Shown here: positions 27,871 through 50,536 of the stretch, piece after piece
How the letters are laid out: every line of letters starts with the position of its first letter
Numbering within the stretch: position 1 is the first letter of the stretch
Assembly (NCBI GenBank): GCA_031763025.1
Contig: JASSKH010000009.1
Coordinates: 7,535,805 to 7,599,804, forward strand
Length of the DNA: 64,000 nt
DNA from: Macrocystis pyrifera
Taxonomy: Eukaryota; Sar; Phaeophyceae; Laminariales; Laminariaceae
Direction of reading: 5' to 3'
The notes under the pieces: generated by a model
Told to the model about the DNA's origin: nothing
The model's input: only the letters and a program-made list of their open reading frames with translations
Database searches by the model: none
Position numbers and translations under genes: made by a program

Positions 27871-28148
27871 TGTAAAGATCAAGGGTTGCGGGACACTTGA
27901 TATCCCTGGACAGGTCTGCCTTTTAAGTCGGAAAACATTGTACTCACATGTGTTGTTCGCTTAGCTATATAAGAAGAGCAGTTTTATTCCTTTCGTGCAC
28001 GCGGAGACTGAGACCAAGCTCGTGCTCCTCTGGAAAACCCCTGATTTTCCATCTAAGATACGCCTTCCAAGTACTACAAATACGTTCCCAGCGACTGAAC
28101 CCAGGTAGTTACCGGGCTTTCAATCTCATACAAGACAATATCTTAACA
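27871..28148 (-). repeat. 3' LTR of the Gypsy element
   Basis: This 278-bp LTR pairs with 41271-41548. On + it reads TGTAAAGATC...TATCTTAACA. It differs from its partner at 11 positions, including two in the terminal TGTTAATATC. The internal side carries a weak purine tract (AGAGTGGG on the minus strand). Confidence 0.9.
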
Positions 28149-28798: not shown

Positions 28799-29340
28799 TC
28801 AAGAACCTCGTACAGCTCTCGTCGAAGTCGTGTAGCGCGCCGGAGAAAGAGGAAGCTTGATTGGTCCCGGGTCGTCCAAAAATCGAACCAAATATACTCC
28901 ATCCGTCGGTGTAGTTGCGCTGATTTTCCCGAGCCACCAAAGACCGTCGTCGCCCTTGTACCAAACGTGGGCCCCGTTGGGAAGTACAGTGTTGCTGTAG
29001 CGGCGGAGCCAATCGGCGTGCGATACGCAACCATAGCCGGGTGCCAGAAACCGCTCGCCGTTACTCCGAGAAAGCTCCCGTTGTGCCGCGCCAATTCTCA
29101 TTCGGCGGTACAGGCGGTTGGTTTGGCGGTGTTGGTTCGGGGTGACGGCCCAATAGCGCAAAATTGCGTGGCGAGAAAGCTGAAGGTCCATTTCCCGTTC
29201 CCAAGATGGCCGGGAAAGTCCCTTCCAGTGCGCCTCGTACATCACCACGATGACGCCACCTCGACCTCTAACCGATTGATGTCCAGTAATCTTTTCAACT
29301 TCGAGTTGTTCAAGAGGGGTCGAAACGTCGTCCTCGATGA
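28799..29340 (-). CDS. Chromodomain plus Tudor-like tail of integrase
   Basis: In the frame 29689-28799, residues about 128-180 form a chromodomain: LEVEKITGHQSVRG, YEAHWKGLSRPSWE and LSRHAILRYW. Residues about 236-290 (GAHVWYKGDDGLWWLGKI, GVYLVRFLDDPGPIKLP) look like a compact SH3/Tudor-type barrel: aromatic pair near its start, then two beta strands. Chromodomains after the integrase steer chromovirus insertion to marked chromatin. A second reader after it is unusual. The frame is joined to the integrase through a frameshift near 29400. The Tudor call is by pattern only; an Agenet- or PWWP-like barrel is possible. Confidence 0.65.
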
Positions 29341-30581
29341 CGTGGTACGGAGGGGATTTTTTGGAGAAATTGTTGAGCACGGCAAATACTTCGGCATGTC
29401 GCCACGGTCGTGGGGGTTGGCACAGGGCTTGCAGCGTTGAACAGATACGCGCCGGCGAGCCTCGGCGCCGGGCATATCGGAAGGAAGATCCAAATACAGG
29501 AGCTTTGCTCCGAGAGGAGATCCATCCGGGGTGTCCGCTGAGGAGCAGGGGCCAACTGCGAGAACTTTGTAGGGGCCCGTCCAGTTGAGTGAGAGTTTGG
29601 CCTTGAGGACCTTGGCGTCCGTGCCTGGTTTCGCGCCCTGGCGGATGGTGCCGCCGTATTGTACACCCACACCCGACCACCAACGTCAAATTTGGGGACC
29701 GGACGCAGAGCGTCGGAGAGGGCGGAGTTGCGGCGGTTCACGCGAGCGACAGTGAGGGCGTGGTGTTCTCGAACGATTTCGTACGCGCGCTGCTGGCGGT
29801 CCGTCGCCAAGTCGCAGTAGGCGAGGTGGTCGCGGGCCAAGCTCTGGTGGTCGGCGACTCCAGCATGTTCGAAAATCGCGAGTGGGAGGCGTGGGAGCCG
29901 ACCCATATGTACCTCGTTGGGAGCCAGACCCGTGGCGGCACTGACGGAATTGTTGTACGCAAATTCGACGTGAGGGAGCTGTACATCCCAGTTGTTTTGG
30001 AGCTCGTCGACGACCATTGCCAACATCTGGGCCATCGTGCGGTTTACACATTCCACCCCACCGTTGCCGTTTGGGTGGTAGGAGCTGGTGGCAATTTTTC
30101 GAACCCCGAGAAGCTGATATACGGCGTGCGAAAGGTTGGAGCAGAACTGGAGGCCGTTGTCCGAGAGGATGCTGCGCGGGCACCCCCAAAGAGGGATACA
30201 CCGGTTGATGAGAATGTTAGCCGTGCCCTCAGCGGTGAACTCGGCCGCTGTGACGGCGTACATGTCCGCTCGGCGGCTGAAACGATCAATGAAAAGCAAG
30301 ATGTAGGTATTACCTCGAGGCGTCACCGGGAGGGGGCCGAAATAGTCGATGCTGACGGCGATGCCGGGCCCTTCTGGCAAGGGCAACGTGATGGAGGGCC
30401 ACCGGACCGTCTGCCGCGACGTTTTCCGTGCCTGGCACTTTAAGCAGTTGCGTAGCCACCACCGGGTGCAGATGCTCATGCCAATCCACCAGTAGAAACG
30501 TTCGAGCATACGTAGGGTGCGCGCGGTTTCTAGGTGGCAAGAAGCCGTAGAATGGCAAGCCTGCATGACCCAGGGGCGCAT
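29310..30581 (-). CDS. Gypsy integrase
   Basis: The open frame starts at 30581. The HHCC zinc finger is seen as H10, H16, C46 and C49 (NCLKCQARK). The catalytic triad is D79 (SIDYFGPLP), D141 (LSDNGLQF) and E177 (GGVECVNRT), a D,D35E spacing. The frame holds integrase sequence to about residue 310 (FDVGGRVWVYN). An indel near 29655 then shifts the true reading into 29670-29242, which carries the GPY module LNWTGPYKVL (about 29577). The enzyme inserts cDNA into the host genome. The core is intact; only the C-terminal part is split. Confidence 0.85.
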   Translation of the reverse strand: MRPWVMQACHSTASCHLETARTLRMLERFYWWIGMSICTRWWLRNCLKCQARKTSRQTVRWPSITLPLPEGPGIAVSIDYFGPLPVTPRGNTYILLFIDRFSRRADMYAVTAAEFTAEGTANILINRCIPLWGCPRSILSDNGLQFCSNLSHAVYQLLGVRKIATSSYHPNGNGGVECVNRTMAQMLAMVVDELQNNWDVQLPHVEFAYNNSVSAATGLAPNEVHMGRLPRLPLAIFEHAGVADHQSLARDHLAYCDLATDRQQRAYEIVREHHALTVARVNRRNSALSDALRPVPKFDVGGRVWVYNTAAPSARARNQARTPRSSRPNSHSTGRAPTKFSQLAPAPQRTPRMDLLSEQSSCIWIFLPICPAPRLAGAYLFNAASPVPTPTTVATCRSICRAQQFLQKIPSVPRHRGRRFDPS

Positions 30582-30824
30582 GAGCAGCGGAACAGTAAAT
30601 GCGAATAGGCTCGTCGTTCAATAAGCAGGCCGTACGACCCACCGGGCGTGGCGTATCCAACGCAGGGGGGGGAGACGGCTGTCAGACAAGTAGAACGATG
30701 CCCGCGTCAGTGGTGTGCAAGCGGCCTTTGGTGGCCAGCTCTTGAACTTCCGAAAAGGGAGGGCGCTAGTGGAAAGGGAAACATGACAAAAAGTCGTCTG
30801 GCAAAACTTCCGGTCGGCCAAGGG

Positions 30825-31502
30825 CTATCTAGCGCATGACGGCATTGCACGCGGGCTCAGCCTGTTGTTCCCGAGCCCAGTCGGCGTGCGAATAGCGCGC
30901 TGCGGAATCACCGAACTGAAACTCGGCAGCTGCGCCGAGGGCGTCCAAGTCGGTCGAGGTGACGGGAGGTGCGTCATTGGCGGCGGAAGTCGTAAAAGAG
31001 GAGTTTCCACGGGCTCGGTGCGGTCGCGGCCGGACGGGGTGGGTACCGTCGGGACGGACGAGGCGGCAGGAGTCGGGGCCAAAACGACGGGGGGCGGTCG
31101 CGGCCGTGGGGCTCGCAGCGGGGTGGTAGCACGCCGGGCTGATGGTCTAGGGGTCCCGCCGGGCCCGAAGCCATATTCAACAGCAGGCGGCACGGCGCCA
31201 GCGGCGGCGGCTGTCCGTCGACGCGTCCGCGATGAGATGCGGCCTGAAGACGGCAAAACGTTCGGCGGCGCCGGGTTGCCAGGCGGCGATGGTGTAGACG
31301 CGGTCGGATCAGTGATCACGCCGGAATCTTTTCCCTGTAAAGTGCTCGTCGGGGGAGGAGCATGCTGGGCGACAATCATCGTTGCAGCGGGGGCTTCTGC
31401 AGAGCCCTGGCATGAAAGGGAAGACGCGGCCGGAGTAGTGCTCACGACGGAACCTTCGACCTGTAAAAGTGCTCGTCGGGGGAGGAGCGCGCTGGGCGAC
31501 AA
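30825..31502 (-). CDS. Gypsy pol linker between RNase H and integrase
   Basis: This Pro/Ala/Thr-rich frame starts inside the 126-bp repeat array and runs toward the integrase. It shows no enzyme motif. It probably represents a spacer of the polyprotein, or noise kept open by high GC content. Confidence 0.35.
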   Translation of the reverse strand: MSPSALLPRRALLQVEGSVVSTTPAASSLSCQGSAEAPAATMIVAQHAPPPTSTLQGKDSGVITDPTASTPSPPGNPAPPNVLPSSGRISSRTRRRTAAAAGAVPPAVEYGFGPGGTPRPSARRATTPLRAPRPRPPPVVLAPTPAASSVPTVPTPSGRDRTEPVETPLLRLPPPMTHLPSPRPTWTPSAQLPSFSSVIPQRAIRTPTGLGNNRLSPRAMPSCAR

Positions 31503-31789
31503 TCGTCGCTGCAGTGGGGGCTTTTGCAGAGCCCTGGCCTGAGAGGGAAGACGCGGCCGGAGCAGTGCTCACGACGGAATCTTCGACCTGTAAAGTGCTC
31601 GTCGGGGGAGGAGCACGCTGGGCGACAATCATCGCTGCAGCGGGGGGGCTTCTGCAGAGCCCTGGCCTGAGAGGGAAGACGCGGCCGGAGCAGTGCTCAC
31701 GACGGAATCTTCGACCCGTAAGGTGCTCGTTGGGAGAGGAGCACGCTGGGCGACAATCGTCGCTGCAGCGGGGGCTTCTGCAGAGCCCT
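31321..31789. repeat. 126-bp tandem array, 3.7 units
   Basis: Units recur at about 126-127 bp with the cores GTGCTCGTCGGGGGAGGAGC, CTGGGCGACAATC, GCAGAGCCCTGG and GAAGACGCGGCCGG. On the minus strand each unit encodes about 42 residues (QRAPPPTSTL, PAASSLSGQGSA). Single-base length changes between units, for example in G runs, shift the frame inside the array. Confidence 0.9.
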
Positions 31790-33178
31790 GGTCGCCCCCG
31801 GAGGGTACGACAAAAACCGAAGCGAAAGCGGCGTTGGCGGGGGTGCAAAATCCCCCAAGCCAGGACGGCGGTCGACGGTGGCGACGGAGGCAGATACACG
31901 AGCGACGAATCTCCCCCCCGAAGGAGCAGAGAGGTCGTCAATCCTCATACGTGGCCCTTGTGTGCGAAAATCGCGAAAATCCGAAGAGGCGAGAGGTAGC
32001 CCACCCAAGACGGCACTTTCACTGCGGGGCACCAGCCCACCCAAACCGACACCAGGGGTCGACGAAGAGCGAGTGCAAAGCCCGAAGGCTCGGATGAGGA
32101 AGATACCACCGTCCTCGACGGGGTTGATGCAGCTATACCCACTGCGGTCGTGTTCTGTGGCGGGCTCTGGCAAGCGGGAGAGAAAGTCAGCATTTCCGTT
32201 GGCGCTGCCCTTACGGTACTCGAGGGTGTAGTCGAACGCGGTGAGGAACTCGAGCCACCGCTGGACTCGCGCGTTGTGGTCCCCTACTTTGGCGATACTC
32301 TCAAGTGCTTTGTGATCCAAAAATATTCGAAACTTCGTGCCCCACAGGTAACCTCGGAGTCGTTTGATAGCCCAGACAATGCTGCCAGCTTCCAGGTCCA
32401 ACGGTGTCCAGTGCCTTTCGGAATCGAGGGTAGCGCGGCTGATATAAGCAATGGGCCGTACCGAGCCGTCCGGTTGTTCTTGTTCGAGCGCGGCACCGAA
32501 ACCGTCGATGCAGGCGTCGCAGTACACGTGGAAGGGGCGGGAGCCGTCGGCTACGGCATCCCAGTCAGGGAAGACCAAAACCGGTGGGGCCGCGAGCTCG
32601 GCGAGGATCTGGCAGACGATAACTTCCATAGCCGGCGTGAAAACATACTTGACCCCCTTCCGGAGAAGGGCGGTGAGAGGACGTATCCGTTTAGACAGGT
32701 CGGGCAGGAATTTGCGATAATATGCTACGCCGCCCATCAGGGCGCGGACCTGCTTGAGGTTCTTGGGCATGGGCATTTTCAGCAAGGCCGAAACGTTTTC
32801 CGCATTAGGGTTTATACCCGCGGGCGAAATAGAGTGGCCCAGAAAGTTGGCGTCCGTGGCGCCGAGGCGAGCCTTCGAGGGGGAGAGCTTGAGGTTGTGT
32901 TTGCGTAGGCGTTCGAAGAGGGCTCGTATCGTCTTGACGTGGGCCGTCGGGTCAGAGTCGAAAACGATCATATCATCAAGGTAGGCCGCCACTTGTGTCA
33001 GGCCTTTAATGACTTCGTTAATCACTTTGACGAACCAGCCGGGCGAAGCACTGCTGCCTTGGGGCATGACGAGACACTCGTAAAGGCCCGTGGGAGTGCA
33101 GAACGCCGTAAGAGGGACGGTGTCCTTGTGCGCGGTAATCTGGTGGAACGAGGAGACCAAATCGAAGAGGGAAAACAC
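31697..33178 (-). CDS. Gypsy reverse transcriptase / RNase H
   Basis: This frame is open for 493 codons. The first catalytic aspartate is in SLFDLVSSFHQ (residue 6) and the YLDD box is at residues 66-69 (AAYLDDMIVF). RT connection follows (LGHSISPAGI, LMGGVAYYRKFLPDLS). RNase H of the RT_RNaseH type is at about residues 215-330 (HVYCDACIDGFGAAL, DLEAGSIVWAIKRLRGYL, GNADFLSRLP). The residues after about 335 are linker. An in-frame TGA at 33182-33184 separates it from the upstream fingers, where coding clearly continues. All catalytic acidic residues are present. Confidence 0.85.
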   Translation of the reverse strand: MFSLFDLVSSFHQITAHKDTVPLTAFCTPTGLYECLVMPQGSSASPGWFVKVINEVIKGLTQVAAYLDDMIVFDSDPTAHVKTIRALFERLRKHNLKLSPSKARLGATDANFLGHSISPAGINPNAENVSALLKMPMPKNLKQVRALMGGVAYYRKFLPDLSKRIRPLTALLRKGVKYVFTPAMEVIVCQILAELAAPPVLVFPDWDAVADGSRPFHVYCDACIDGFGAALEQEQPDGSVRPIAYISRATLDSERHWTPLDLEAGSIVWAIKRLRGYLWGTKFRIFLDHKALESIAKVGDHNARVQRWLEFLTAFDYTLEYRKGSANGNADFLSRLPEPATEHDRSGYSCINPVEDGGIFLIRAFGLCTRSSSTPGVGLGGLVPRSESAVLGGLPLASSDFRDFRTQGPRMRIDDLSAPSGGRFVARVSASVATVDRRPGLGDFAPPPTPLSLRFLSYPPGATRALQKPPLQRRLSPSVLLSQRAPYGSKIPS

Positions 33179-33181
33179 CCG

Positions 33182-34857
33182 TCACTTCCCCAGGGAGTCG
33201 AGGACTTGGTCCACGCGAGGGATAGACAGCTGGCTGAGTTTGCTGATCTGGTTGAGTTTTTTGTAGTTCACGGTGATCCGAACGCCTCCAGACTTCTTCG
33301 GGATAACCACCAGCGGGCTCGAGTACGGAGAAGTCGGGTGCTGGATCAGACCTGCCGCTAGGTACTGATCCAAGGTGGCCTCCATTTCCTTGGCCAGGAT
33401 GGGGTTGATGCGGTGCGGCCTGGATGTGACAGGAGCGCTTTCTTCCGGGACCGAGATCACGAAAGGCATCAACGAGCAGGAACCAAAATCCGTCTTGGAC
33501 TTCGAGAAAACGTCATGAAATTCGCAGAGAACGTCCCCCAGCTGTTCAATGACCGCGGGGGTCCAGTCTGTGCCGTGGAGATCAAAAGCCACCTCCCGCA
33601 GATGTGTCGGCAAGCGTGCCCAGACGCGCAGGAACGAAGCGTGCTGTTCTGAGGTCAAACGCTCAAGCAGTACAGGCGAGGGCGAGGCTGGAGCTGAGAG
33701 GGGGGGGGCAGTAACTGCGGAAACCGGACACACCTTATCTAGTCCGGAGGGAAGGCTGGGGGCTCGGTTGTCCTGCTGCAAAACGTCCAGCGGGACGCTC
33801 AGCAGTGGGGCGTGGGCGACGCCGAGGACATCCCCCGGCTCGAGAGCCGCCACTCCAACGAGGGGAAGAACCTGTCGTCCGGAGGAGACGAAGTGCTCCT
33901 CGACCGAGGGTAGGTTGGGCTGGGGCATCATGTCGACCAAGTAGTGTCCAGTGAGGACCGGGGAGCCATCGCTTCGAACCAAATTAACAGCAAGCAGCTG
34001 GGGATCGTCGGACAGGGTGACGCCTGCTGCGCCCTCGTGGCGTAGATGGAAGCCTCCACCCGAAGCGGCGGAGTCGATGGCGTACACGGACATGCCTGGT
34101 GGGGCGTGGTGAACTAACGCCAGCTCGCCAAAAACGCGTTGATCAGACGGTCGAGGTGGCAGAGAGCGGTAGGAGCGGCTATTAAAGCGCATCCAGCTGT
34201 CACGTCCCAATAGTACAGCATGCTGCATCACCGAGGGGGGAACCACGCAGGCCCAAACTGCGAGGGAGCAAGTAGGCTCATTTTCTCGAAAAAATTGGAC
34301 GCTCAGGCGCACACTCGTCGAAATCTTCAGAGGGGCCGATTCGCCAACACCCCACCAAGAACGAGGGGCGCCTTTCTGCTCGCACGCGAGGGATGCCGCA
34401 CCAACCGAGTGCATGCGATCCAAAACATCTCGTCGGATGAAAGTCTGCGGGGAGCCAGTGTCAAGAAGCGCCACGCAACCAAAAGGTGCAAGAACGCCAG
34501 CTCCGCTGTGAATCGCGATTTTCGTTGTAATAGAGGCGTCATCGAGGGCAATGGTGCCCCCGACGAGGCAGGGGCCGTGTTCTGGCAGCGCGAGGGAGGG
34601 GTCGACACTAGGTGCGACAGCCAAAATCTCGGAGCTGTGATCAGCCGGCGCGTCAGAAAAATAGGTCGAAAACTCCACAGGAGGACCTGGGCAAGCGCGG
34701 GCCACGGCCAAAGGGCGGGGCGGCGCTGGTGTAATCTCATGAATTCTGTCAGGTCTGGTTGGGGTGCAGAATTGGTGAGAGGAGGCGGGGTGTGCCAACT
34801 CGGCCTCACTTGATCGGAGGGTGTCGCAAACGGCGGAAAGAGCTTTACCGAGCAAAT
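33182..34857 (-). CDS. Gypsy aspartic protease and RT N-terminus
   Basis: This is the long frame (ORF start 34921, 579 codons). Its first residues after 34858 (NLLGKAL) are the end of the NADAR domain read in a shifted frame. A retropepsin motif ALLDTGSPQTFIRRD sits at about residues 151-165. A region of about 250 residues without a known motif follows. RT begins near residue 455: PHRINPILAKEMEATLDQYL, GLIQHPTSPYSSPLVVIPKK, VRITVNYKKLNQ. It stops at the TGA at 33182, a premature stop within the RT palm start. Confidence 0.8.
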
Positions 34858-35448
34858 TTTTCCATGCCACCGAGAGGGGTCGTGAGCTTGGGGGTCGTCT
34901 GCCCGCAGACCGATGCCCCACACGGCATCAAAAGGGCTGGCTTCAGCCAATTTTTTGGTGCCAGTGCTCAATAGGTGCTGCTTCATGACCGGGTTCTGCG
35001 AGAATTTGGCAAAATTACCAGCAAGGACGGCGTCTTCCCGAACACGGTCCCAGATAGCGCAGTCGAAGTTATGCACGCCTCGACCGAGGCGTTTGTGCTC
35101 GCGTGGGTCTGGCGAGGCCATAATCCGCTCCGCTGTGCCGTGGTCCTGGAAAAGGCGAGCCTTTTCAGCCATCATATACTGCTCCGCGCAGGAATATGAT
35201 GCATCGTCGACGACAAAAGACGAGGGGGACCACTGCGAAAAATAAGAGGGGGGCTGCCAGAATAGTACCACCCGCTCCGTTGTATACTCGAGAGTAGGGT
35301 CAAAAACCGACGGTGCCAAGTCATCGGTGGCCGCCGTTGCGGCGTGTGGGGGGGGGAGTGTGCTTCTCTGAGAACACTGAGCCCCTGGTGCACGAGACGA
35401 GTCCGGTTCCACGTATACTGGCTCTGTGTCACCATTGCCCGTAGGCAA
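34813..35448 (-). CDS. NADAR (YbiA/DUF1768-like) domain in Gypsy polyprotein
   Basis: In the frame starting at 35448, residues 59-197 match the NADAR fold in order: VVLFWQPPSYFSQWSPSSF, YSCAEQYMMAEKARLF, ERIMASPDPREHKRLGR, FDCAIWDRVRE, NFAKFSQNPVMKQHLLSTG, LAEASPFDAVWGIGL and RWHGK. The closing NLLGKALSAV continues in the next frame from 34858, after a run of five A. Family knowledge: NADAR proteins include bacterial YbiA-type N-glycosidases and enzymes that remove ADP-ribose from guanine bases, and they occur beside DNA-targeting ADP-ribosyltransferases. Here the domain lies between gag and protease of an LTR element. A role in protecting element RNA or cDNA is inference only. The signature residues look intact. 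Confidence 0.85.
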
Positions 35449-35637
35449 AAGATCGCCAGAAAGTTCTCTTGCTGCGCCCGATGATCTGTGTCCTGGACCA
35501 AAGGGGGCAGGGGGCTCTGAGCCCGTTCTGCTTGACGAGAGCTGCGATTCTTCCGAATTTAACGGGTATAATGTCCGGTTGATCTGACCGGAGGCCGTGG
35601 AGTCACCACTGGCTCGACGGACAGTGCCAGGTTTTTC

Positions 35638-36312: not shown

Positions 36313-37587
36313 TCAGTTACCGGCGCGGAAGATGCCTGGCTGCCGTCCATTCGGGTTTCCGCCCGAGTTATGCGAGGCACCGTAGCGAACCCCCGAGACG
36401 GGAGCCGGGGCGAAAGAGGTAGGGGCGGTCGAACCACCATGATGGCCGGAGTGAGACTGCTGGTGTCCTCGAGCCGCGTGTGTGTTGTAGCCATCACCTT
36501 GTCTGTGTTGCTGACCCTGGCCGTGATGTTGCCCACGCGAGTGGCCGGGACGACGCCTGGGTTTCTTCTGGTTGTATTTGTTCGGTCGTGAATTGTTCTC
36601 GCGGCGGTGTCTGATCATGCGTTTTTGCCAACGACGGAACGCCTCGCCGTCGTCGCCGAGCGTTCCGAGGTCGGGGTTTAAGATACCACTAAGGTTTAAA
36701 AAGGGATGTCTACACCGTCGAAGAGAGTGTGTGTCTTCGTGACAGTTTAAACAGCGTCCTCGGTTTTCGCTGAGGGCGGCTGCGCGAGCGGACGATGAAA
36801 GTAGGCCGCTCCAGAGGGGAGGGTCCTCGGTCTGGATGGACATGCAAACGGCGTGAACTTCGGCATAGTGGTGTTCTTCAAGAGGCCAGCAGTTGGAAGA
36901 GGTGTCAAGCCACGGGTCGAGGCAGTCAGGGATGGATTTGTGGACATTCATCACAAGCGGATTATTGCGCGATCCCGTCTGCCAAGAAGGCGACTGGGGA
37001 AGCGTCCGGCCCTGGCCGCGACCAATATTGGCGGGCCGGGGCCCCGACGGGGCGGATGACCGCGCACCCGTCGAAGAAGCAGGCAAAGAAAAATATTTTT
37101 CGCCGTTGACGGTAGGTGTCTTATTATTCGCAAGAGTCTCGAAAGCTAACCACATGGCGTCCAAAGTGCCGAACGGCCTCGATACCGTAGCCAAAACTCC
37201 CGGGTACAGCGTCGGCATCAAGCTAGGGCACTGCTCGTTCACTGCCATCCGAACTACCTCCAAAACAACCTCCACCCCCGGTGCCAAAACACGCTCAGTC
37301 CCCGTCGCTGCAGACACCACCCTTCGCAATGCACGACTAAAACCGCAATAGGGGTCCCGTTAGCCACGCCAAAATTATACAACTTAGTGTAGCTGGCCCC
37401 CGTGTTGGTGCGGTCAAAGTGGTTGCTCAGCAACCTCAGGAGGAGCGTGAACGCCTCCGGTCCCGACGATCCTGCTGCCAGGGCGCGCGACACCTGTCCA
37501 AAAAAAACATCCATCAAGGTAGTGAGAGGGGCGGTCGTAGGCTTGTCAGGCGTGATGGCGCGCGCGAAGGATTTCTTGAGAGGGTAG
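36313..37587 (-). CDS. Gypsy gag C-terminal part with CCHC knuckle
   Basis: Coding continues past the TAG at 37588-37590 (LMDVFFGQVSRALAAGSSG, LLSNHFDRTNTGAS) to about 37350. It then shifts to the frame 37329-36313, with AMWLAFETLANNKTP and a nucleocapsid knuckle CLNCHEDTHSLRRC (C-x2-C-x4-H-x4-C) at about 36740-36700. A His/Gln/Gly/Arg-rich RNA-binding tail follows. This is the capsid/nucleocapsid half of gag. One stop and one indel interrupt it. Confidence 0.7.
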
Positions 37588-39676: not shown

Positions 39677-40462
39677 TCAACGGGCACTACGAGCACTTGG
39701 GGAGCGAGCCTCGACCCCAGGTGGTGTCGTGATAGGGTGGCGGCTGTCGCGGTTTAGATGTGTACTAACAGCAAGTGTAGTTGGTGTTGGCGCGTCCCCG
39801 ATACTGGAGGGCCTATCAAAAGCCTCGTTCCCTCTAGCAGCAGTATTAGAACTCGCATCGGAACGAGAATGCTCAACCGGATCGCCGCGGGTAGCTACAG
39901 CAGTGGGCACGTCGGTACTGGAGGACCTATCAAAAACACCATCCACTCGAGCAACAGTATTAAAACTCGCATCAGGGCGAGAATTCTCAGCAGAAACGTC
40001 GCGGGTAGCCACAGTAGCGGGCACTCCGGTACTGGGGGGCCTGTCAAAAGCATCGTCCTCACTAACAGCAGTATTAAAACTCGCAGCAGGACGAGAACTC
40101 GCAGAAGAATCGTCACGGGTAGCTACAGCAGCGGGAACTGCGGTACTGGGGGGCCTATCAAAAGCATCGTCCCCTCTAACACCAGTATTAAGATTCGCAG
40201 CAGTAGTGGAATTTCCAGCGGGATCGGCGTGGGTGGTTACAGCAGCGGGCGAAAAGGACGTAATACTGAAATCCAGTGTGCCATCTTGTGGACGAGGAGC
40301 GGGAAAAATTTCGCGAGCGGCCGTGGTGCTCCCGCTATCAGCAGCATGAAAACTCGAACCAGCACTGTAATTTCCAGGATCTCTGTTTGCAGCTCCTAAT
40401 AGAGCAGCGCGGGAAGCAGGCTCAACAGCGAAACCCAGTGTGCCATCGTGTGGCCGCGGCAC
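39677..40462 (-). CDS. Gypsy 5' ORF with 38-aa tandem repeats
   Basis: This is a 261-codon frame just inside the 5' end. Its centre holds about four 38-residue repeats (DDAFDRPPSTGVPA, VATRD, SRPDASFNT) encoded by 114-bp DNA units starting at about 39810, 39924, 40038 and 40152. Unit length is a multiple of three and the frame stays open. There is no known domain. It could be an extra ORF, an N-terminal gag extension or a repeat-rich leader. Confidence 0.4.
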   Translation of the reverse strand: MPRPHDGTLGFAVEPASRAALLGAANRDPGNYSAGSSFHAADSGSTTAAREIFPAPRPQDGTLDFSITSFSPAAVTTHADPAGNSTTAANLNTGVRGDDAFDRPPSTAVPAAVATRDDSSASSRPAASFNTAVSEDDAFDRPPSTGVPATVATRDVSAENSRPDASFNTVARVDGVFDRSSSTDVPTAVATRGDPVEHSRSDASSNTAARGNEAFDRPSSIGDAPTPTTLAVSTHLNRDSRHPITTPPGVEARSPSARSAR

Positions 40463-41156: not shown

Positions 41157-41255
41157 GCAGTGGCCGGAACAAACTTACTCAACAACAATAGGAAAGCAAA
41201 CAAAAAAAAACAGTGGCACACAACGCAAACCGACAAAAAAAGCGGAAAGTCCTAA

Positions 41256-41268
41256 GCCGAAGACGCCA
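41256..41268 (-). other. Candidate primer-binding site
   Basis: On the minus strand, two nucleotides after the end of the 5' LTR, is TGGCGTCTTCGGC. Gypsy-type primer sites usually start TGG because they pair with the CCA end of a tRNA. The tRNA was not identified. Confidence 0.4.
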
Positions 41269-41270
41269 CT

Positions 41271-41548
41271 TGTTAATATCAAGGGTTGCGGGACACTTGG
41301 TATCCCTGGACAGGTCTGCCTTTTAAGTCGGTAAACATTGTACTCACATGTGTTGTTTGCTTAGCTATAGAAGAAGAGCAGTTTTATTCCTTTCGTGCAC
41401 GCGGAGACTGAGACCAAGCTCGTGCTCCTCTGGAAAACCCCTGGTTTTCCATCTAAGGTACGCCTTCCGAGTACTACAAATACGTTCCCAGTGACTGAAC
41501 CCAGATAGTTACCGGGCTTTCAATCTCATACAAGACAATATCTTAACA
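41271..41548 (-). repeat. 5' LTR of the Gypsy element
   Basis: This 278-bp LTR with perfect TGTTAA...TTAACA termini pairs with 27871-28148. It is followed on + by GAGCGC; GAGC also precedes the other LTR. Confidence 0.9.
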
Positions 41549-42517
41549 GAGCGCACACGCGCACCGCCCCCCTTTGAGCATACTCCACTTTTTTTGCTCA
41601 CCATCAGCTTCCAGGCGAGCAAATCAATCATCACATCGGCCTGGGGTCGCCATTATCTTCTTCTCTTCTTTTAAAGCTTCTCGTACAAGTCACCTGACCG
41701 CGACTACACGTTTCCCTCGAACATCGATTGTGTATTGACCGGCCATCAGCTATTGAGTCTAGGCGTACACATCAGATACGAGCTGATACACACACCAATC
41801 GCCATACCTAATATCCGTCGTGTACCCTGGTACTTTCTTAGCGGGGCGCAGCTCTACCACATGTAGTCCCATCCATTCCACGGTACAATACTACGTGGTA
41901 AATACCAGCAGCCCTATTGTCCCTAGTTTCGTACCTGGTACATAAGATGAATCACATTTGAAGTCTATCACGTAGACTATACAGAACTTGCTGGCGCAGC
42001 TTCGACAGTAAGGTTGGCAAATTATCTTTGGTTTTCAACCCTAGCCCAACCCTTACCCCGACCTCCCCGCCCATTCCCTCGGAATGAACATTTTAAAATG
42101 CTGACGTGTTTTGGTATGGACCTGTGGACCAAATCGTTGTCGAAGCTGGGCAACGTCCTAATCGATACAGACGGCATCAGGCTGTGAATACGAAGGGGAC
42201 ACATACAGGACGAGGGGTGCTACACTACAATAGGGGTGGCCTTTTTTGGCCGCAATATTTTGTGACTGAAGAGAGCCGCAGTCCCGTTTTGGCGAAAAAC
42301 AACTTAGAGTGTGAGTGGTTTGTTCCCGAAACGGGACTGCAGTCGTAAAAAAGGGCTACAAAATATCGTTGGGACACCATTATATTACATGCCGGTAGTG
42401 GTTTACCTGGTGCAATATTATTCGCGATGCACCTAGATTTGGGATTGCTCCTCGGGATGCACTTTGAGCTTTCTCGAAAATGGTTTTGTGGGGGAGATAT
42501 ATAGATATATATATATC
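41549..42517. other. Spacer with a palindromic repeat
   Basis: No gene is seen. It contains the GTCCCG palindromic repeat (42231-42390) and a TA microsatellite (about 42496-42523) at the edge of the tandem duplication. Confidence 0.4.
42231..42390. repeat. Palindrome-centred dispersed repeat, copy 1
   Basis: The inverted halves GCAGTCCCGTTTTGG and AAACGGGACTGC surround AACTTAGAGTGTGAGTGG. The related sequence at 54690-54840 keeps the same hairpin layout (GTCCCGCTTTGGGG, ACTTAGAATTTGACTGG, AAAGGGACTGA). It is probably a small non-coding DNA transposon. Confidence 0.5.
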
Positions 42518-42742
42518 TATATACAAGGCTTTCCTTCGGAGTGGGTATTCCGTCGTTTCGTGTACATATAGCTGCAATTAATTGGCGACATAGCCCAAAG
42601 CCAACCAAACTAAATATATTTGTTTAAGAAACGGTGAAGGATGTAATAATCGCGTTTATTTATTAATGTAATGTGAAACGTAAGATCGGGTGACGCAAGA
42701 GTAAGAATGACATTCGTCTAATAATAAGAATAACATCTTTCA

Positions 42743-45366
42743 TCAGTGTGGGGAGAGAGTGGAGTAGTGCTTGGCATGTGGATGATATACAACATACAGG
42801 CTGTTGTTTAAAGGAAGGTTTGGGACAGGAGAGAAAGCAGCAGTGCGGGCAACGACAACGGTTATGGAAATGTTGTATAGTTGCTGGGCGGCCGCGATTT
42901 CGATGTAGCCAGCATAGGAGTTTGGATGAGACATGATATGTAAATAGTCTTCCAGGATGCTGTAGTAACGAGGCGGGAGGCCCAGAATGTGGATCTGTTC
43001 GCTGTTGAACCCGTTGGATATGTGTAGGAAGAAATAATCGTGATTTTGGGAAATGTGGGAAACAATTTGTTTCCTTCGTCCTGGATGGCGTCCTGGATGA
43101 CAATCTGCTTGGCGTACTGCTTCGGAATTCCGCGAAGCCCTGGAGCAGGCGAAATGGAAGGGAGTCTTTTTGCGCTTGATGATGATGTCTCCGTCTTTGA
43201 TGGTGGAGTCCGTCAGGCGGCAGTTGTAGCACTTGCCACGGACCTGGTCGAAGTAAACATATAGGGTGCGCGGGGCGGGAGTGGCGTGCAGGGAATGGCG
43301 GGGGAGGGGGAAGGGGCATAATTCATTATTTGTACTACTCTACATTGGCACAACAGCAGTACGTAATCGCTTGCTATACGACGGCAGCAGCAGCAGCAGA
43401 AAGCAGCAAGTACGTAATTTCATTGACGATACAGAAATATGTAGACGCACAAGTGTAGTACAGCACACACACAAATCACGTCCAGCATGATGTACGGCAA
43501 CAACGCAGCAGCACCACAAAAAAAATCATTGACGATACAGAAATATGTACACACGCACAAGTTTAAGTGTAATAGACACACAAATCATGTCCAGCATGAT
43601 GTACGGCAACAACGCAGCAGCGCCACAAAACGACCAGGAAACACAAAATTGTCCGAGTACATACAAACATTCAGTGAATATTGCGGCAGCACTTAAAGTA
43701 GGGCAGCAGCAGCAGCAGAAGCAGCAACGGATCGCCACAGCGTTGGCAGCAGCAGCGTAGCAACGATATGAAAAGAAGGGAGAAAAAAAGTATGTACCCC
43801 GCGGCCGTCCGAAAAGTATTTTTGGTAACTCACTATAGACCCACCTCCGTTGTGCTGTACGGCAACAACGCAGCAGCATAGCATCAAAACGAATTACGAG
43901 AAAACGTAGTACGTACGCAAAATGCAGGAGCAAAACGACCAAAATATTTTTTTTACGTATAAAAAAAAAAAGCCATTTGGGTACAAAAATGGCCAATAAA
44001 AACAATAATCCGCGTTGGCAGCAGCAGCATAGCAACGATATGAAAATAAGGAAGAAAAAAAGTATGTACCCTGGTATGCCGCAATCGCAAAACCTACGGA
44101 ATTTCATTGACGATACCGAAATATGTACACACACAAGTGCAGCATGATGTACGGCAACAACGCCGCACCACCACAGCAGCAGCATAGCAACGATATAGAT
44201 GAAAATAACCAAGCCAAAAACGAGAAATTGCAGTACGTACGCAAAATGCAGGAGCAAAACGACAAAAATATTTTTTCACGTATCAAAAGGAACCATTTGG
44301 GTACAAAAACGACCAAGAAAAACAGTAATCCGAGTACATACGAACATTCAGTGGATATTGCGGCAGCATTAGCAGCAGCAGCAGCAGAAGCAGCTACAGC
44401 ATTAGCAGCAGCAGAAGCTGCAACGAATCGCCGCAGCGTTGGCAGCAGCAGCAGCAGCATAGCAACGATATGAAAATAAGGAAGAAAAAAAGCATGTACC
44501 CTGGTATGCCGCCATCGCAAAACCTACGGAATTGACGATCCGAAAATATGTACGCTTCCAGCATGATGCACGGCAACAACGCAGCAGCACTACATACGGC
44601 AGCAGCAAGTGCACAGGAGCAGCAGGTGCACAGCACGGCAACAACGCACCAGCACTACGGCAGCAGCGAGTGCACCGGATAAGCAGGTGCACAGCAGCAG
44701 CAGCACTCATAGCGTGGCGCTGACAGTAGCAGCAGCAGCGGCAGCCGAAAACGAGCAAAATGAGTACGTGGGGTCACCAAAACATGTACACACAGAAATC
44801 GTGTGCTTCACGTCCCGCAAACAGTTGTGCATGTGCGCGTTCGCGTGCACTGTGTGTGAGAGGAGCCGACCCAACGCACGAAGGGGAAACAACGAGCATG
44901 GATGAGTCAAAAAAAAAAAAACGCTTTTGACGTAGGTTTGTATGCAAAAAGGCATTTGAAAACCCTTAAAAGACGTACTGGCAACATACAGCATGCACAA
45001 TAGACGTAAGACACTCACCACTGTCAGCAGTCTCGAGGGAGTACGAGACAGTCCCTTCCTTGATCGGGCGAGCACAGAACTCGCAGTCGGTTGCCCTGTC
45101 AGGATGATCCCGCCACCACGCACGTGGGATCCTTGCAGGTGGCGAAGGCCACGTTTTTGCCACCAGGCGCGGAGTTCTTGACCAAGTGCTGGTCCGTGCA
45201 CTGGTCGCAAACAACAGCCGGCACCAGGTCGGTCGTTGTCGTTGCCGCTCTCTTGCCAGAGGGCGAGGACCACGCGCCTCTCGACGAGGGGGAGGTGAGC
45301 TTAGGGGGCGTGGAGAAGGGAGAGGCGGGGGTTGCAGCACCAGCAGGTTCGCCACCGACAGCAGCA
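42743..45366 (-). CDS. Finger plus OTU-like protein, copy A
   Basis: A putative two-exon minus-strand gene. The upstream exon (about 45366-45019) has VVCDQCTDQH, FATCKDPTC and, one frame over, ATDCEFCARPIKEG. It ends at the donor GTGAGTGT. The downstream exon (about 43275-42743) has a second finger, GKCYNCRLTDSTIKDG...FHFAC, then an OTU cysteine-protease-like C-terminus: NHDYFFLHI, ILEDYLHIMSHPN, YAGYIEIAAAQQLY and HAKHYSTLSP before the TGA. The His in HAKHY fits the OTU catalytic His; a DGNC-type cysteine motif was not found. The OTU part is fully open in copy A, but 1-nt shifts split the finger from it. The intron is full of CAG repeats. Confidence 0.45.
43365..44740. repeat. CAG/CAA-rich intronic repeat tract, copy A
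   Basis: Many short (CAG)n runs are separated by recurrent blocks such as TTGACGATACAGAAATATGT, CAGCATGATGTACGGCAAC and CGCAAAATGCAGGAGCAAAA, seen repeatedly at about 43420, 43530, 44105 and 44550. Long minus-strand ORFs rich in Cys and Leu are translations of these repeats and not genes. Confidence 0.8.
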
Positions 45367-45467
45367 GCTTGGCCGCCGACAGCTGCACCTATCTATGCCG
45401 TTCGTCGAAGGCGAGACGCCTCTTTTAGGCGCCGTGCGAAGAGCTGTCTATTGGTTGGCAGTTTGCG

Positions 45468-45625
45468 GAAGAAGAAAGAAGAAAAGGTTGTTTGGCTGTT
45501 TGGCGAAGAAGAAAGAAGAAAGGTTGTTTGGCTGTTCGGCTGTTTCAAAAAAGGAAGAAAGAAGAAAGGTTGTTCGGTTGTTCGGCTGTTTCAAAGAAGA
45601 AGGGCTGTTTGCGAAGAGCTGTCTA
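45468..45625 (+). repeat. GAAGAAAGGTTGTTTGGCTG minisatellite, copy A
   Basis: Imperfect units of about 45-50 bp contain GAAGAAAGAAGAAAGG, TTGTTTGGCTGTT and CGGCTGTTTCAAA. It sits 5' of the minus-strand finger/OTU gene. Copy B has a different unit number and order. Confidence 0.7.
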
Positions 45626-47385
45626 TCAGTCGGTCTGTCTGCCAAGAGCTAGCAAGTGACAACGACCTCAAAAATCGTAATTCTAGTTGTATCTATATAC
45701 AAGGCTTTCCTTCGGAGTGGGTATTCCGTCGTTTCGTGTACATATCACCGCAATTAATTGGCGACATAGCCCAAAGCCAACCAAACTAAATGTATTTGTT
45801 TAAGAAACGGTGAAGGATGTAATAATCGCGTTTGTTTATGAATGTAATGTGAAACGTAAGATCGGGTGACGCAAGAGTAAGAATGACATTCGTCTAATAA
45901 TAAGAATAACATCTTTCATGATCAGTGTGGGGAGAGAGTGGAGTAGTGCTTGGCATGTGGATGATATACAGCATACAGGCTGTTGTTTAAAGGAAGGTTT
46001 GGGACAGGAGAGAAAGCAGCAGTGCCGGCAACGACAACGGTTGGTTATGGAAATGTTGTATAGTTGCTGGGCGGCCGCGATTTCGATGTAGCCAGCATAG
46101 GAGTTTGGATGAGACATGATATGTAAAGTCTTCCAGGATGCTGTAGTAACGAGGCGGGAGGCCCAGAATGTGGATCTGTTCGCTGTTGAACCCGTTGGAT
46201 ATGTGTAGGAAGAAATAATCGTGATTTTGGGAAATGTGGGAAACAATTTGTTTCCTTTCGTTCGTCCTGGATGGCGACAATCTGCTTGGCGTACTGCTTC
46301 GGAATTCCGCGAAGCCCGGAGCAGGCGAAATGGAAGGGAGTCTTTTTGCGCTTGATGATGATGTCTCCGTCTTTGATGGTGGAGTCCGTCAGGCGGCAGT
46401 TGTAGCACTTGCCACGGACCTGGTCGAAGTAAACATATAGGGTGCGCGGGGCGGGAGTGGCGTGCAGGGAATGGCGGGGGAGGGGGAAGCGGGGGGGGGG
46501 GGGCATAGTTCATTATTTGTACTACTCTACATTGGCACAACAGCAGTACGTAATCGCTTGCTATACGACGGCAGCAGCAGCAGCAGCAGAAGCAGCAAGT
46601 ACGTAATTTCATTGACGATACAGAAATATGTACACACACAAGTGTAGTACAGTACACACGCAAATCACGTCCAGCATGATGTACGGCAGCAACGCAGCAG
46701 TACCACAAAAAAAAAATCATTGACGATACAGAAATATGTACACACGCACAAGTTTAAGTGTAATAGACACACAAATCATGCCCAGCATGATGTACGGCAA
46801 CAACGCAGCAGCGCCACAAAACGACCAGGAAACACAAAATTGTCCGAGTACATACAAACATTCAGTGAAATTGCGGCAGCACTAAAAGCAGAGCAGCAGA
46901 AGCAGCAACGGATCGCCACAGCGTTGGCAGCAGCAGCATAGCAACGATATGAAAAGAAGGGAGAAAAAAAAGTGTGTACCCCGAGGCCGTCCGAAAAGTA
47001 TCTGTGGTACCTCTCACTATAGACCCACCTCCGCATGCTGTACGGCAACAACACAGCAGGAGCAGCATAGCAACAATACGAAATACGCGAAAAAAGTAGT
47101 ACGTACGCAAAATGCAGGAGCAAAACGACCATTTTTTTTTTTTACGTATCGAAAAAACCATTTGGGTACAAAAACGGCCAAAAAAAACAATAATCCGCGT
47201 TGGCAGCAGCAGCATAGCAACGATATGAAAATAAGGAAGAAAAAAAGTATGTACCCTGGTATGCCGCAATCGCAAAACCTACGGAATTTCATTGACGATA
47301 CCGAAATATGTACATACACAAGTGCAGCATGATGTACGGCAACAACGCAGCAGCACCACAGCAGCAGCATAGCAACGATATATAT

Positions 47386-47395
47386 GAAAATAACC
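47386..47395. repeat. Left target-site duplication (10 bp)
   Basis: GAAAATAACC left of the transposon is repeated at 49252-49261. In copy A the same sequence occurs once (about 44204-44213), uninterrupted, as the empty site. Confidence 0.9.
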
Positions 47396-47439
47396 AAGGC
47401 TTATCACGGTAAATTCGGCGGAACGGTAACGGCGGTAAC

Positions 47440-47765
47440 GGCGGGGCGGGACGGGACGGGACGGTAAAACCGCCGCCAAAATGGTCCTGCCGTCCCGTAC
47501 CGTCCCGTCCCGCCGACAAAATCCCTGACCATCGTCGCTTAACCGTCCCGTCCCGCCTATAAAATCTCTCCCGTTGGAAATTACCGTCTCGTCCCGCCGT
47601 GACACAGAAAAATTACCGTCCCGTCCCGCCGTGGAACCGAAAAAGTACCGTCCCGTCCCGCCGTGACACCGACAAATTACCGTCCCGTCCCGCCGTGACC
47701 CCGAAAAAATACCGTCCCGTCCCGCCGATAAAATCTCTCCCGTAGAAAATTATCGTTCCGTCCCG
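47440..47765. repeat. Left subterminal CCCGTCCCG array
   Basis: About seven units of roughly 30 bp contain TACCGTCCCGTCCCGCCG followed by an A-rich spacer (TGACACCGAAAAAT type). The first part is in inverse orientation (GGGACGGGACGG), so the array changes orientation near 47480. Confidence 0.85.
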
Positions 47766-48096
47766 TCGTGGCACCGCCGCCGGCGGACATAACTTGCCTC
47801 TTCCCGTACAAGAAACATTCATGGTGGTCTGTTCCCATCCATTTCCACCACGAACTACGAAAATAATCAAGAAATTTCGAGTTGTACCAAACTTCAATAG
47901 TAATTCCTATATAAATACATGTGTTATCGTAAATTGTGCACAACTCCCATCTATAAATGAAATACGTATCAAATAGTAGTAGGCGTATTACCCAGCTTGC
48001 CAAATTGGGTATCAACTAGTCAACTATTAATCAGTCGAACTCACAGATGACGTATTTTCATCGTCTTGCTTATATAATACCTGGTCAGTGGTTGGT

Positions 48097-48199
48097 ATGA
48101 TATTGCTGGGCACCACATTTACTTGTGCTAGAAAAAGCTGTGCTGGTGGTGTTGATCACCAGCTGGTTGATGATCTGTTTGATATACTTTCAAATGAAG
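48097..48199 (+). CDS. Exon-like ORF inside the transposon
   Basis: ATG at 48097 lies about 25 bp after TATATAA (48070). The frame (MILLGTTFTCARKSCAGG, QLVDDLFDIL) runs to a perfect donor, GAAG|GTAAGTAC at 48199/48200. A possible next exon from about 48291 contains VRCQGCRVECYT (near 48470), a Cys-pair pattern like the zinc ribbons ending some transposases. No DDE motif is visible. It is a decayed or chimeric remnant at best. Confidence 0.3.
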
Positions 48200-48904
48200 G
48201 TAAGTACAAATATTACCGAAAAAGAATGAAAATTACTACCAGGTACCAAGTAGTCAGTGTATACCTGGTGTTGTATTTTCTTTTCATATCTTCATCCTTC
48301 ATTTCCGCTCGCAACTGAAAGCAGAGTATCATATCACAACACCTGCCACAGACTCGCCACCACACACAAAGAGCACACAGACCACGATCACACCAGTACC
48401 ACTGGTGTGGCCCAAAAAGATTTAGGAGACATGCCATCAAGCGGGACGCAAAACGTGCGCTGTCAAGGATGTAGGGTCGAGTGTTACACACTGTCAATGT
48501 CAATGCCAAGTTGCTGTCCGTCAAGGGGTGAAAGTGCTGTCTCCTAACATCTTTGGTGTGACCGGCACGGACGCCATGGATGCCTATCTCACACGGGCGG
48601 GGTCGATCGACCAGCAGCGGCATAGGAATCACCACCGCCGCCACCACCACCTCCATCTGCACAACCACCAGTAACACAGCGCAAGCACAACCATCAGAAC
48701 AGCCACCATGAGCTGGCAACGCAACAACAGCGCTTGGGGCAGGGGTGGAAGAAATCAGAAGACGTCGCCCGAGTAGTGGCAGCACTTCTCGGGGCTTGGG
48801 CTGCGCGGGTCGAGAAGAAAACGTCTGCGTCGGGACGGCTCCCTTCGCGGAACCAGCAGTGTGCGGGAATGTTTCACGTACAACCGTGCTGACCCTGCGG
48901 CGGG

Positions 48905-49225
48905 AAAGAAGAAAATTACCGTCCCGTCCCGCCGAGGAAGAAAATATTTTACCGTCCCGTCCCGCCGAGGAAAAAAATATTTACCGTCCCGTCCCGCCGA
49001 GGAAAAAAATATTTACCGTCCCGTCCCGCCGAGGGGAAAAATATTTACCGTCCCGTCCCGTCGTTAAATTTACCGTCCCGTCCCGTCGAGAAATTCGGCA
49101 CCCGCTGTCCCGTCCCGTTTCGTCCCGCCAAATTTTTATGTCCTCATTTTACCGTCCCGTCCCGTCCCGGTTTCATTTTTATTTCCCGCCAAACGACTCA
49201 AATCTGTCCCGTCCCGTCCCGTCAC
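48905..49225. repeat. Right subterminal CCCGTCCCG array
   Basis: Eight or so units of about 30-34 bp contain ACCGTCCCGTCCCGCCG followed by AGGAAAAAAATATTT. The final units switch spacer type. An ORF across it is a translation of the repeat. Confidence 0.85.
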
Positions 49226-49494
49226 GATTCTCAGTCACTGTGATAAGCCTTGAAAATAACCAAGCAAAAAACGAGAAATTGCAGTACGTACGCAAAATGC
49301 AGGAGCAAAACGACAAAAATATTTTTTCACGTATCAAAAGGAACCATTTGGGTACAAAAACGACCAAGAAAAACAGTAATCCGAGTACATACGAACATTC
49401 AGTGGATATTGCGGCAGCATTAGCAGCAGCAGCAGCAGAAGCAGCTACAGCATTAGCAGCAGCAGAAGCTGCAACGAATCGCCGCAGCGTTGGC

Positions 49495-49534
<40 letters not shown>

Positions 49535-50536
49535 CAACGATATGAAAATAAGGAAGAAAAAAAGCATGTACCCTGGTATGCCGCCATCGCAAAACCTACG
49601 GAATTGACGATCCGAAAATATGTACGCTTCCAGCATGATGCACGGCAACAACGCAGCAGCACTACATACAGCAGCAGGAAGTGCACAGGAGCAGCAGGTG
49701 CACAGCACGGCAACAACGCACCAGCACTACGGCAGCAGCGAGTGCACCGGATAAGCAGGTGCACAGCAGCAGCAGCACTCATGGCGTGGCGCTGACAGTA
49801 GCAGCAGCAGCGGCAGCCGAAAACGAGCAAAATGAGTACGTGGGGTCACCAAAACATGTACACACAGAAATCGTGTGCTTCACGTCCCGCAAACAGTTGT
49901 GCATGTGCGCGTTCGCGTGCACTGTGTGTGAGAGGAGCCGACCCAACGCACGAAGGGGAAACAACGAGCATGGATGAGTCAAAAAAAAAACAAACGCTTT
50001 GACGTAGGTTTGTATGCAAAAAGGCATTTGAAAACCCTTAAAAGACGTACTGGCAACATACAGCATGCACAATAGACGTAAGACACTCACCACTGTCAGC
50101 AGTCTCGAGGGAGTACGAGACAGTCCCTTCCTTGATCGGGCGAGTACAGAACTCGCAGTCGGTTGCCCTGTCAGGATGATCCCGCCATCACGCACGTGAG
50201 ATCCTTGCAGGTGGCGAAGGCCACGTTTTTGCCACCAGGCGCGGAGTTCTTGACCAAAGTGCTGGTCCGTGCACTGGTCGCAAACAACAGCCGGCACCAG
50301 GTCGGTCTTTGTCGTTGCCGCTCTCTTGCCAGAGGGCGAGGACCACGCGCCTCTCGACGTGGGGGAGGTGAGCTTAGGGGGCGTGGAGAAGGGAGAGGCG
50401 GGGGTTGCAGCACCGGCAGGTTCGCCACCGACAGCAGCAGCTTGGCCGCCGACAGCTGCACCTATCTATGCCGTTCGTCGAAGGCGAGACGCCTCTTTTA
50501 GGCGCCGTGCGAAGATCTGTCTATTGGTTGGCAGTT

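Follow-up and report, generated by a model that had tools for sequence, protein, structure and literature searches.

A NADAR domain recurrent at the start of Pol in a brown-algal Ty3/Gypsy lineage, with a possible role on the element's own nucleic acid

We analysed a stretch of 64,000 nt from the brown alga Macrocystis pyrifera (contig JASSKH010000009.1, positions 7,535,805 to 7,599,804 of the forward strand; the window, hereafter) that holds a 13.7-kb Ty3/Gypsy retrotransposon flanked by 278-bp long terminal repeats (LTRs), and found that this element carries a NADAR domain between its gag zinc knuckle and its protease motif. The same arrangement recurs in at least three families of the genome and in Ectocarpus Pol proteins, and the NADAR distances largely follow those of the reverse transcriptase (RT). 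As a function we favour, at about even chances, a brown-algal Ty3/Gypsy lineage whose Pol would start with a NADAR (a YbiA-type ADP-ribosylhydrolase) that removes ADP-ribose from the element's nucleic acid within the particle.

The Pfam profile PF08719 (NADAR) is matched from position 2 to 148 of 163 in the minus-strand open reading frame (ORF) 34327-35637 of the window, with an E-value of 2.2e-43 and a score of 148.8 bits (cut-off 35.1). Among PDB sequences the domain matches the Phytophthora NADAR 8bau (E 1.9e-15) and Escherichia coli YbiA 2b3w (E 5.3e-6), and an AlphaFold model built for this very domain (mean pLDDT 90.3) shows the NADAR fold, being matched by Foldseek to 8bau (E 5.6e-11, TMq 0.79) and to YbiA (2b3w; E 1.7e-6). 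A preliminary description of this DNA, made from its letters, had proposed a NADAR domain captured by a Gypsy element and lying between gag and protease; the profile match, the presence of the domain in many other copies, and the position, strand (minus throughout) and motif order all bear this out, with the protease named by its motif. The signature motifs quoted there are found in the window, e.g. CAEQYMMAEK at 35190-35161 and AEASPFDAVWGIGL at 34947-34906. The span then given, 34813..35448, does include the domain but is too wide, as the domain extends from about 35271 to 34817 and positions 35272-35448 are a linker without a Pfam match. Likewise, the earlier wording of a nearly complete domain passes over a break: a frame change inside the C-terminal end places the last part (34861-34817) in another frame. 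By alignment, all six ligand or catalytic residues (E43, K50, R79, W89, E125 and W133, in the numbering of the Phytophthora protein in PMC11543638) are present in the window copy, while D86 is not kept.

A first look at the genome that holds the window (223 contigs, 537 Mb) yielded 1264 NADAR candidates, and every one of the 150 that were scored passed the cut-off; with the window's own domain as query there were 1394 candidates and 152 matches. These counts reject a one-off insertion. Matching Pol sequence lies downstream of the domain in 36 of 36 fetched loci, which were chosen from the NADAR match lists and are hence silent on how often Pol lacks NADAR. They fall into three families, F1 (the window's own, 19 copies), F2 (11) and F3 (6), with the domain at the same position and at 47-58% amino-acid identity across the three (to F1, about 49% for F2 and about 58% for F3). 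Sampling by RT instead, we found NADAR upstream in 36 of the best 39 of 126 listed RT matches (the window included, all close to F1): 26 have a listed NADAR at the distance expected (pairing done by eye), and 10 of the other 13, which were fetched, contain one as well, each in more than one frame. The remaining three have no NADAR in the 701 bases fetched. The two findings that the preliminary description had named as refuting its reading, lack of a significant profile match and absence from every other copy of the family, were thus both contradicted.

All 36 relatives, whose selection by NADAR score works against frame breaks, have the two parts of the domain in one frame. Nine of 10 further RT-chosen F1 copies are also in one frame at that point, the tenth (L212) switching frame a few residues further on. 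For this reason programmed frameshifting at the C-terminal end of NADAR is disfavoured. The window copy, in which in-frame stops also occur in the gag-side frame, is a decayed, broken member of its lineage.

A protein search with the F3 RT returned 168 proteins, many of the 120 listed being named Ectocarpus. PF08719 is present in the precomputed domains of 29 of these 120 Pol relatives and in 30 by our own profile search, the additional match (P0157) being weak, partial and 28 residues long; all 30 matches lie upstream of the RT. Where at least 560 amino acids precede the RT, 12 of 15 relatives match NADAR, P0157 included, and the three that do not are P0137 and P0145, both database gene products, and P0200. 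P0200 and P0203 form a separate RT pair, and the long NADAR-less pre-protease region of P0200 points to a loss or a pre-capture branch. A search with the F2 NADAR found, among long proteins, P0001 and P0002 only, the latter combining NADAR with a protease-like motif. In the RT tree, where Ectocarpus is represented by database proteins and not by the Repbase sequence Gypsy-12_Ec32, the element and the Ectocarpus NADAR-bearing Pol proteins are set apart together by a branch with support 100/99.

The closest named free-standing kin of the domain are NADARs of Nannocystis (Myxococcota) and brown-algal genes, at about 57-63% identity; many higher-scoring matches are unnamed sequences, some of them perhaps pieces of elements. 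Of the free-standing algal proteins, P0011, P0029, P0030 and P0043 are brown-algal and P0027 comes from a eukaryote without a species name. The four brown-algal ones have an N-terminal Cys/His-rich stretch; when a free-standing host NADAR gene was sought by comparing P0043 with the genome, none of the 150 listed matches (of 1351 candidates) covered its Cys-rich part (about residues 22-50).

RT and NADAR distances are correlated, with r of 0.88 for all 21 sequences, 0.59 without eight near-duplicates (n = 13) and 0.80 when F2 is also left out (n = 12); in each of the three sets, 0 of 10000 permutations were as high. F2 is represented here by the RT of copy L034, as L030 has none. The main groups recur in both trees, and P0140 and F2 shift between them. 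The RT of F2 is close to those of F1 and F3 (distances 0.24 and 0.22) but its NADAR is far from theirs (0.50 and 0.52), and in a free tree the F2 NADAR joins a Desulfuromonadaceae NADAR at 99/97 (L030, L024, L036 vs L092), the latter taken from a contig with bacterial-looking ORFs. Nevertheless, a single clade uniting every element NADAR is not rejected (approximately unbiased test, p 0.108 and 0.144 in a first set and 0.306 in a better-sampled one), and those other than F2 group at 81/84. Free-standing algal genes neighbour these non-F2 NADARs at support 84 in a quick tree but not in a careful one. The simplest reading would be a single capture before the families of this genome and those of Ectocarpus separated; independent capture by each family is not needed, since one clade is not rejected. 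The F2 domain may reflect a second capture, a replacement or an acceleration.

We compared dN/dS across copies, a check put forward in the preliminary description. Between families (NG86) the NADAR ratio is 0.20 (F1-F2 and F1-F3) and 0.25 (F2-F3), compared with 0.14-0.23 in the protease region, 0.11 in the RT (F1-F2) and 0.07-0.13 in the N-terminal RT portion; these are rough values, as pS is about 0.65-0.75 and dS near saturation, and saturated pairs, which in the F1-F3 protease region made up as many as 70 of 114, were excluded from the mean dS. Within families, constraint is weak. Might the domain be a mere passenger, a gene of host or bacterial origin trapped in the element and decaying? 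The many broken copies, among them the window copy and all 10 RT-chosen copies with a NADAR beyond the match list, would fit such a history. It is nonetheless already disfavoured and very improbable, given the shared position in three families that differ by about half of their residues and show a between-family ratio of about 0.2, the co-divergence with RT, and the presence of NADAR in nearly all RT-chosen copies.

For the active-site residues we compared 22 element NADARs, among which several are near-copies. K50, W89, E125 and D130 are kept in 22 of 22 and R79 and W133 in 21. Of the 18 sequences with a residue at position 43, 16 keep E43, and P0143 and P0237, which are database gene products of uncertain quality, have D instead. 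Y84 is replaced by F in all 22. The commonest residue has a mean share of 0.89 at the 13 listed positions vs 0.68 at the 138 others. This conservation, together with the four invariant residues, stands against the idea that the element retains the domain as a binding or structural module, e.g. as a reader of RNA or ADP-ribose or as a Gag-Pol spacer, with catalysis not required. The weak within-family constraint and the two substitutions at E43 would be in keeping with a non-catalytic role, which we regard as improbable overall.

What is known of the family leads to the favoured role. According to passages of PMC11543638, NADARs hydrolyse ADP-ribose from guanine in DNA, and passages of PMC11833690 report that the NADARs assayed, among them YbiA, undo the ADP-ribosylation of guanosine on RNA. 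Because of this biochemistry we infer a role in de-ADP-ribosylation of the element's RNA or cDNA: NADAR would be made as the N-terminal part of Pol, would enter the virus-like particle with it and would there strip ADP-ribose off guanine in the RNA or cDNA of the element, which would keep ADP-ribosylation, made by the host or arising as a by-product, from blocking reverse transcription. The role proposed in the preliminary description, to clean the element's RNA or cDNA or to counter an ADP-ribosylation-based host defence, is plausible.

Ranked next, and possible though rather unlikely, is that the domain acts on small molecules instead of element nucleic acid: ADP-ribose derivatives of tRNA splicing by Tpt1/KptA, NAD-derived signals, or riboflavin intermediates as in bacterial and plant NADARs. 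The host does have a Tpt1/KptA gene, in pieces (exons) on its contig C194, and all 22 element NADARs have the YbiA-type glutamate E125. However, this residue does not discriminate, because YbiA itself acts on guanosine-ADP-ribose RNA (PMC11833690, in the passages cited). Passages of PMC9503650 cut both ways, arguing for soluble ADP-ribose derivatives as the targets of phage NADARs and allowing that viral NADARs might prefer such derivatives, but favouring macromolecular targets for the NADARs of eukaryotic RNA viruses. Moreover, fusion to Pol would bring the domain to the particle, which would be an odd site for metabolite clearance.

Several observations weigh against de-ADP-ribosylation of element nucleic acid by a conserved Pol domain. 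No DarT was found in the genome and PARP gave one partial match, above the cut-off (51 of 199 profile positions), in six-frame searches that go exon by exon and would miss much; the linked DarT that marks a NADAR as a DarTG1 antitoxin is accordingly lacking among these matches. The F2 NADAR does not follow its RT, and P0200 has 630 amino acids upstream of its RT with no NADAR before the protease. The between-family ratio of the domain is higher than that of the RT and of the N-terminal RT portion, and constraint within families is weak: for all F2 copies pN/pS is 0.64 for singleton and 0.69 for shared NADAR variants, RT-retaining F2 copies reach 1.30 for shared variants (9 N, 2 S), and F1 shared variants, where the signal is biased by the choice of copies, stand at 0.41 in NADAR vs 0.18-0.22 in the protease region and RT. 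Finally, none of the 22 element NADARs keeps D86 and 12 keep R93, two positions that vary in the eight bacterial rows as well.

One common deletion that takes nearly all of the RT and RNase H is present in eight of the 11 fetched F2 copies (L024, L029-L033, L036 and L038). Genome-wide, its junction pattern has 129 matches vs 69 for the undeleted, RT-retaining site, an approximate ratio, as each pattern allows up to three mismatches; reversed control patterns had 0 matches. L024, which lacks the RT, has a 386-codon frame matching integrase. At least 80% of the NADAR is present in 13 of 20 places sampled by hand from about 100 listed junctions (10 with one open frame), and in 12 of 20 sampled from the 69 RT-retaining places (seven with one open frame). 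Amplification of the derivative must, we infer, use RT in trans. Its retention of NADAR may reflect simple youth, and selection on the domain in cis finds no support among 13 copies of the derivative (pN/pS 0.73 for singletons; 5 N and 2 S shared), a count from which L207 and all copies with less than 80% of the domain were excluded. The fullest version of the story, in which the lineage would carry a particle de-ADP-ribosylase against an unknown algal defence, F2 would have swapped in a bacterial NADAR at the same site, and the commoner RT-less derivative would keep the enzyme acting in cis, is decidedly improbable. As a separate observation, four of 40 sampled F2 copies start abruptly near the same point in the NADAR C-terminus (L183 at about 452, L184 at about 453, L202 at about 443 and L206 at about 438-443, positions within the fetched copies) with unrelated sequence upstream, a pattern that would fit a shorter unit whose 5' end is fixed.

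The features of the window element, all on the minus strand, are as follows.

27871..28148, minus: 3' LTR, 278 bp with TG..CA ends, 267/278 identical to the other LTR
29150..29302, minus: chromodomain-like stretch C-terminal to the integrase (Pfam Chromo E 0.0022, 18.3 bits, under the cut-off of 25.1)
30072..30590, minus: integrase, H2C2 zinc binding (PF17921, E 2.9e-11) and rve core (PF00665, E 7.8e-8)
32234..33178, minus: RT (PF00078, E 7.2e-22) and RNase H (PF17917, E 9.7e-31), YLDD box at 32983-32960
34445..34468, minus: aspartic-protease-type motif LLDTGSPQ downstream of NADAR, motif only, in an ORF without a Pfam protease match
34817..35271, minus: NADAR domain (Pfam, PDB sequence and fold matches), C-terminal part in a different frame
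36712..36753, minus: gag CCHC zinc knuckle CLNCHEDTHSLRRC, CX2CX4HX4C by eye
41251..41268, minus: stretch resembling a primer-binding site, with TGG at its start and lying 2 nt inward of the 5' LTR, read from the sequence and named without tRNA comparison
41271..41548, minus: 5' LTR, 278 bp, paired with the 3' LTR

The order is thus LTR, CCHC knuckle, NADAR, protease motif, RT-RNase H and integrase, the N-terminal RT portion sitting in the ORF 33182-34927. Assignment to Ty3/Gypsy (Metaviridae) follows from protease (by motif only), RT, RNase H and integrase in this order and from LTRs with TG..CA ends and a short target-site repeat; the latter, GAGC directly outside both LTRs, is a 4-bp match that is weak by itself, as GAGC recurs in that stretch. 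The chromodomain-like stretch is followed by another conserved one (WYK..DGLWWLGK...VRFLDDPGPI; window ORF 28799-29737, L024 ORF 5509-6522), which gets no above-cut-off Pfam name in the window copy. Tandem repeats occur within the element at 31263-31771 (about 127 bp x 4) and 39798-40250 (about 114 bp x 3). Next to the element, the stretches 42514-47398 and 44200-49801 are duplicated, at spacings of about 3.18 kb and about 5.05-5.07 kb and 91-100% alike.

A NADAR-Gypsy fusion is already in print for one Ectocarpus lineage, e.g. Gypsy-12_Ec32 (passages of PMC12477816, Genome Biology 2025). As there, the NADAR of the window element lies in the N-terminal region of Pol, and database Ectocarpus proteins with RT and NADAR share its RT clade; for the C-terminal chromodomain of that lineage, the window element has a candidate stretch whose match is below the Pfam cut-off. 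Unlike there, we deal with another genome, at least three families, an RT-less derivative and a broken window copy. As far as the passages of that paper on NADAR elements show, the RT-less derivative and the RT-NADAR co-divergence do not appear in it, and what is new here comprises these two, the derivative often with NADAR, the scale in a second genome and the named algal free-standing kin. The same source describes a captured NADAR in another retrotransposon, ORF1 of a Tx1 LINE of Crassostrea gigas, which differs in being a LINE and not an LTR element, in the ORF concerned and in its divergent NADAR. In animal nidoviruses and picorna- and hepe-like viruses NADAR is also embedded in a replication polyprotein, but these are RNA viruses with an RNA polymerase and animal hosts (passages of PMC9503650). 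The Phytophthora nicotianae NADAR (8bau) shares the fold and most ADP-ribose contacts, at 30% identity in the structural alignment, and passages of PMC11543638 do not describe it as part of an element; the Nannocystis and brown-algal kin are free-standing proteins.

The physiological role of eukaryotic NADARs is called unclear in passages of PMC11125620. Should the enzyme act on the RNA or cDNA of the element, they would gain one, and brown algae would be a setting in which nucleic-acid ADP-ribosylation counters retroelements. With so many copies available, the question can be tested by expressing single domains.
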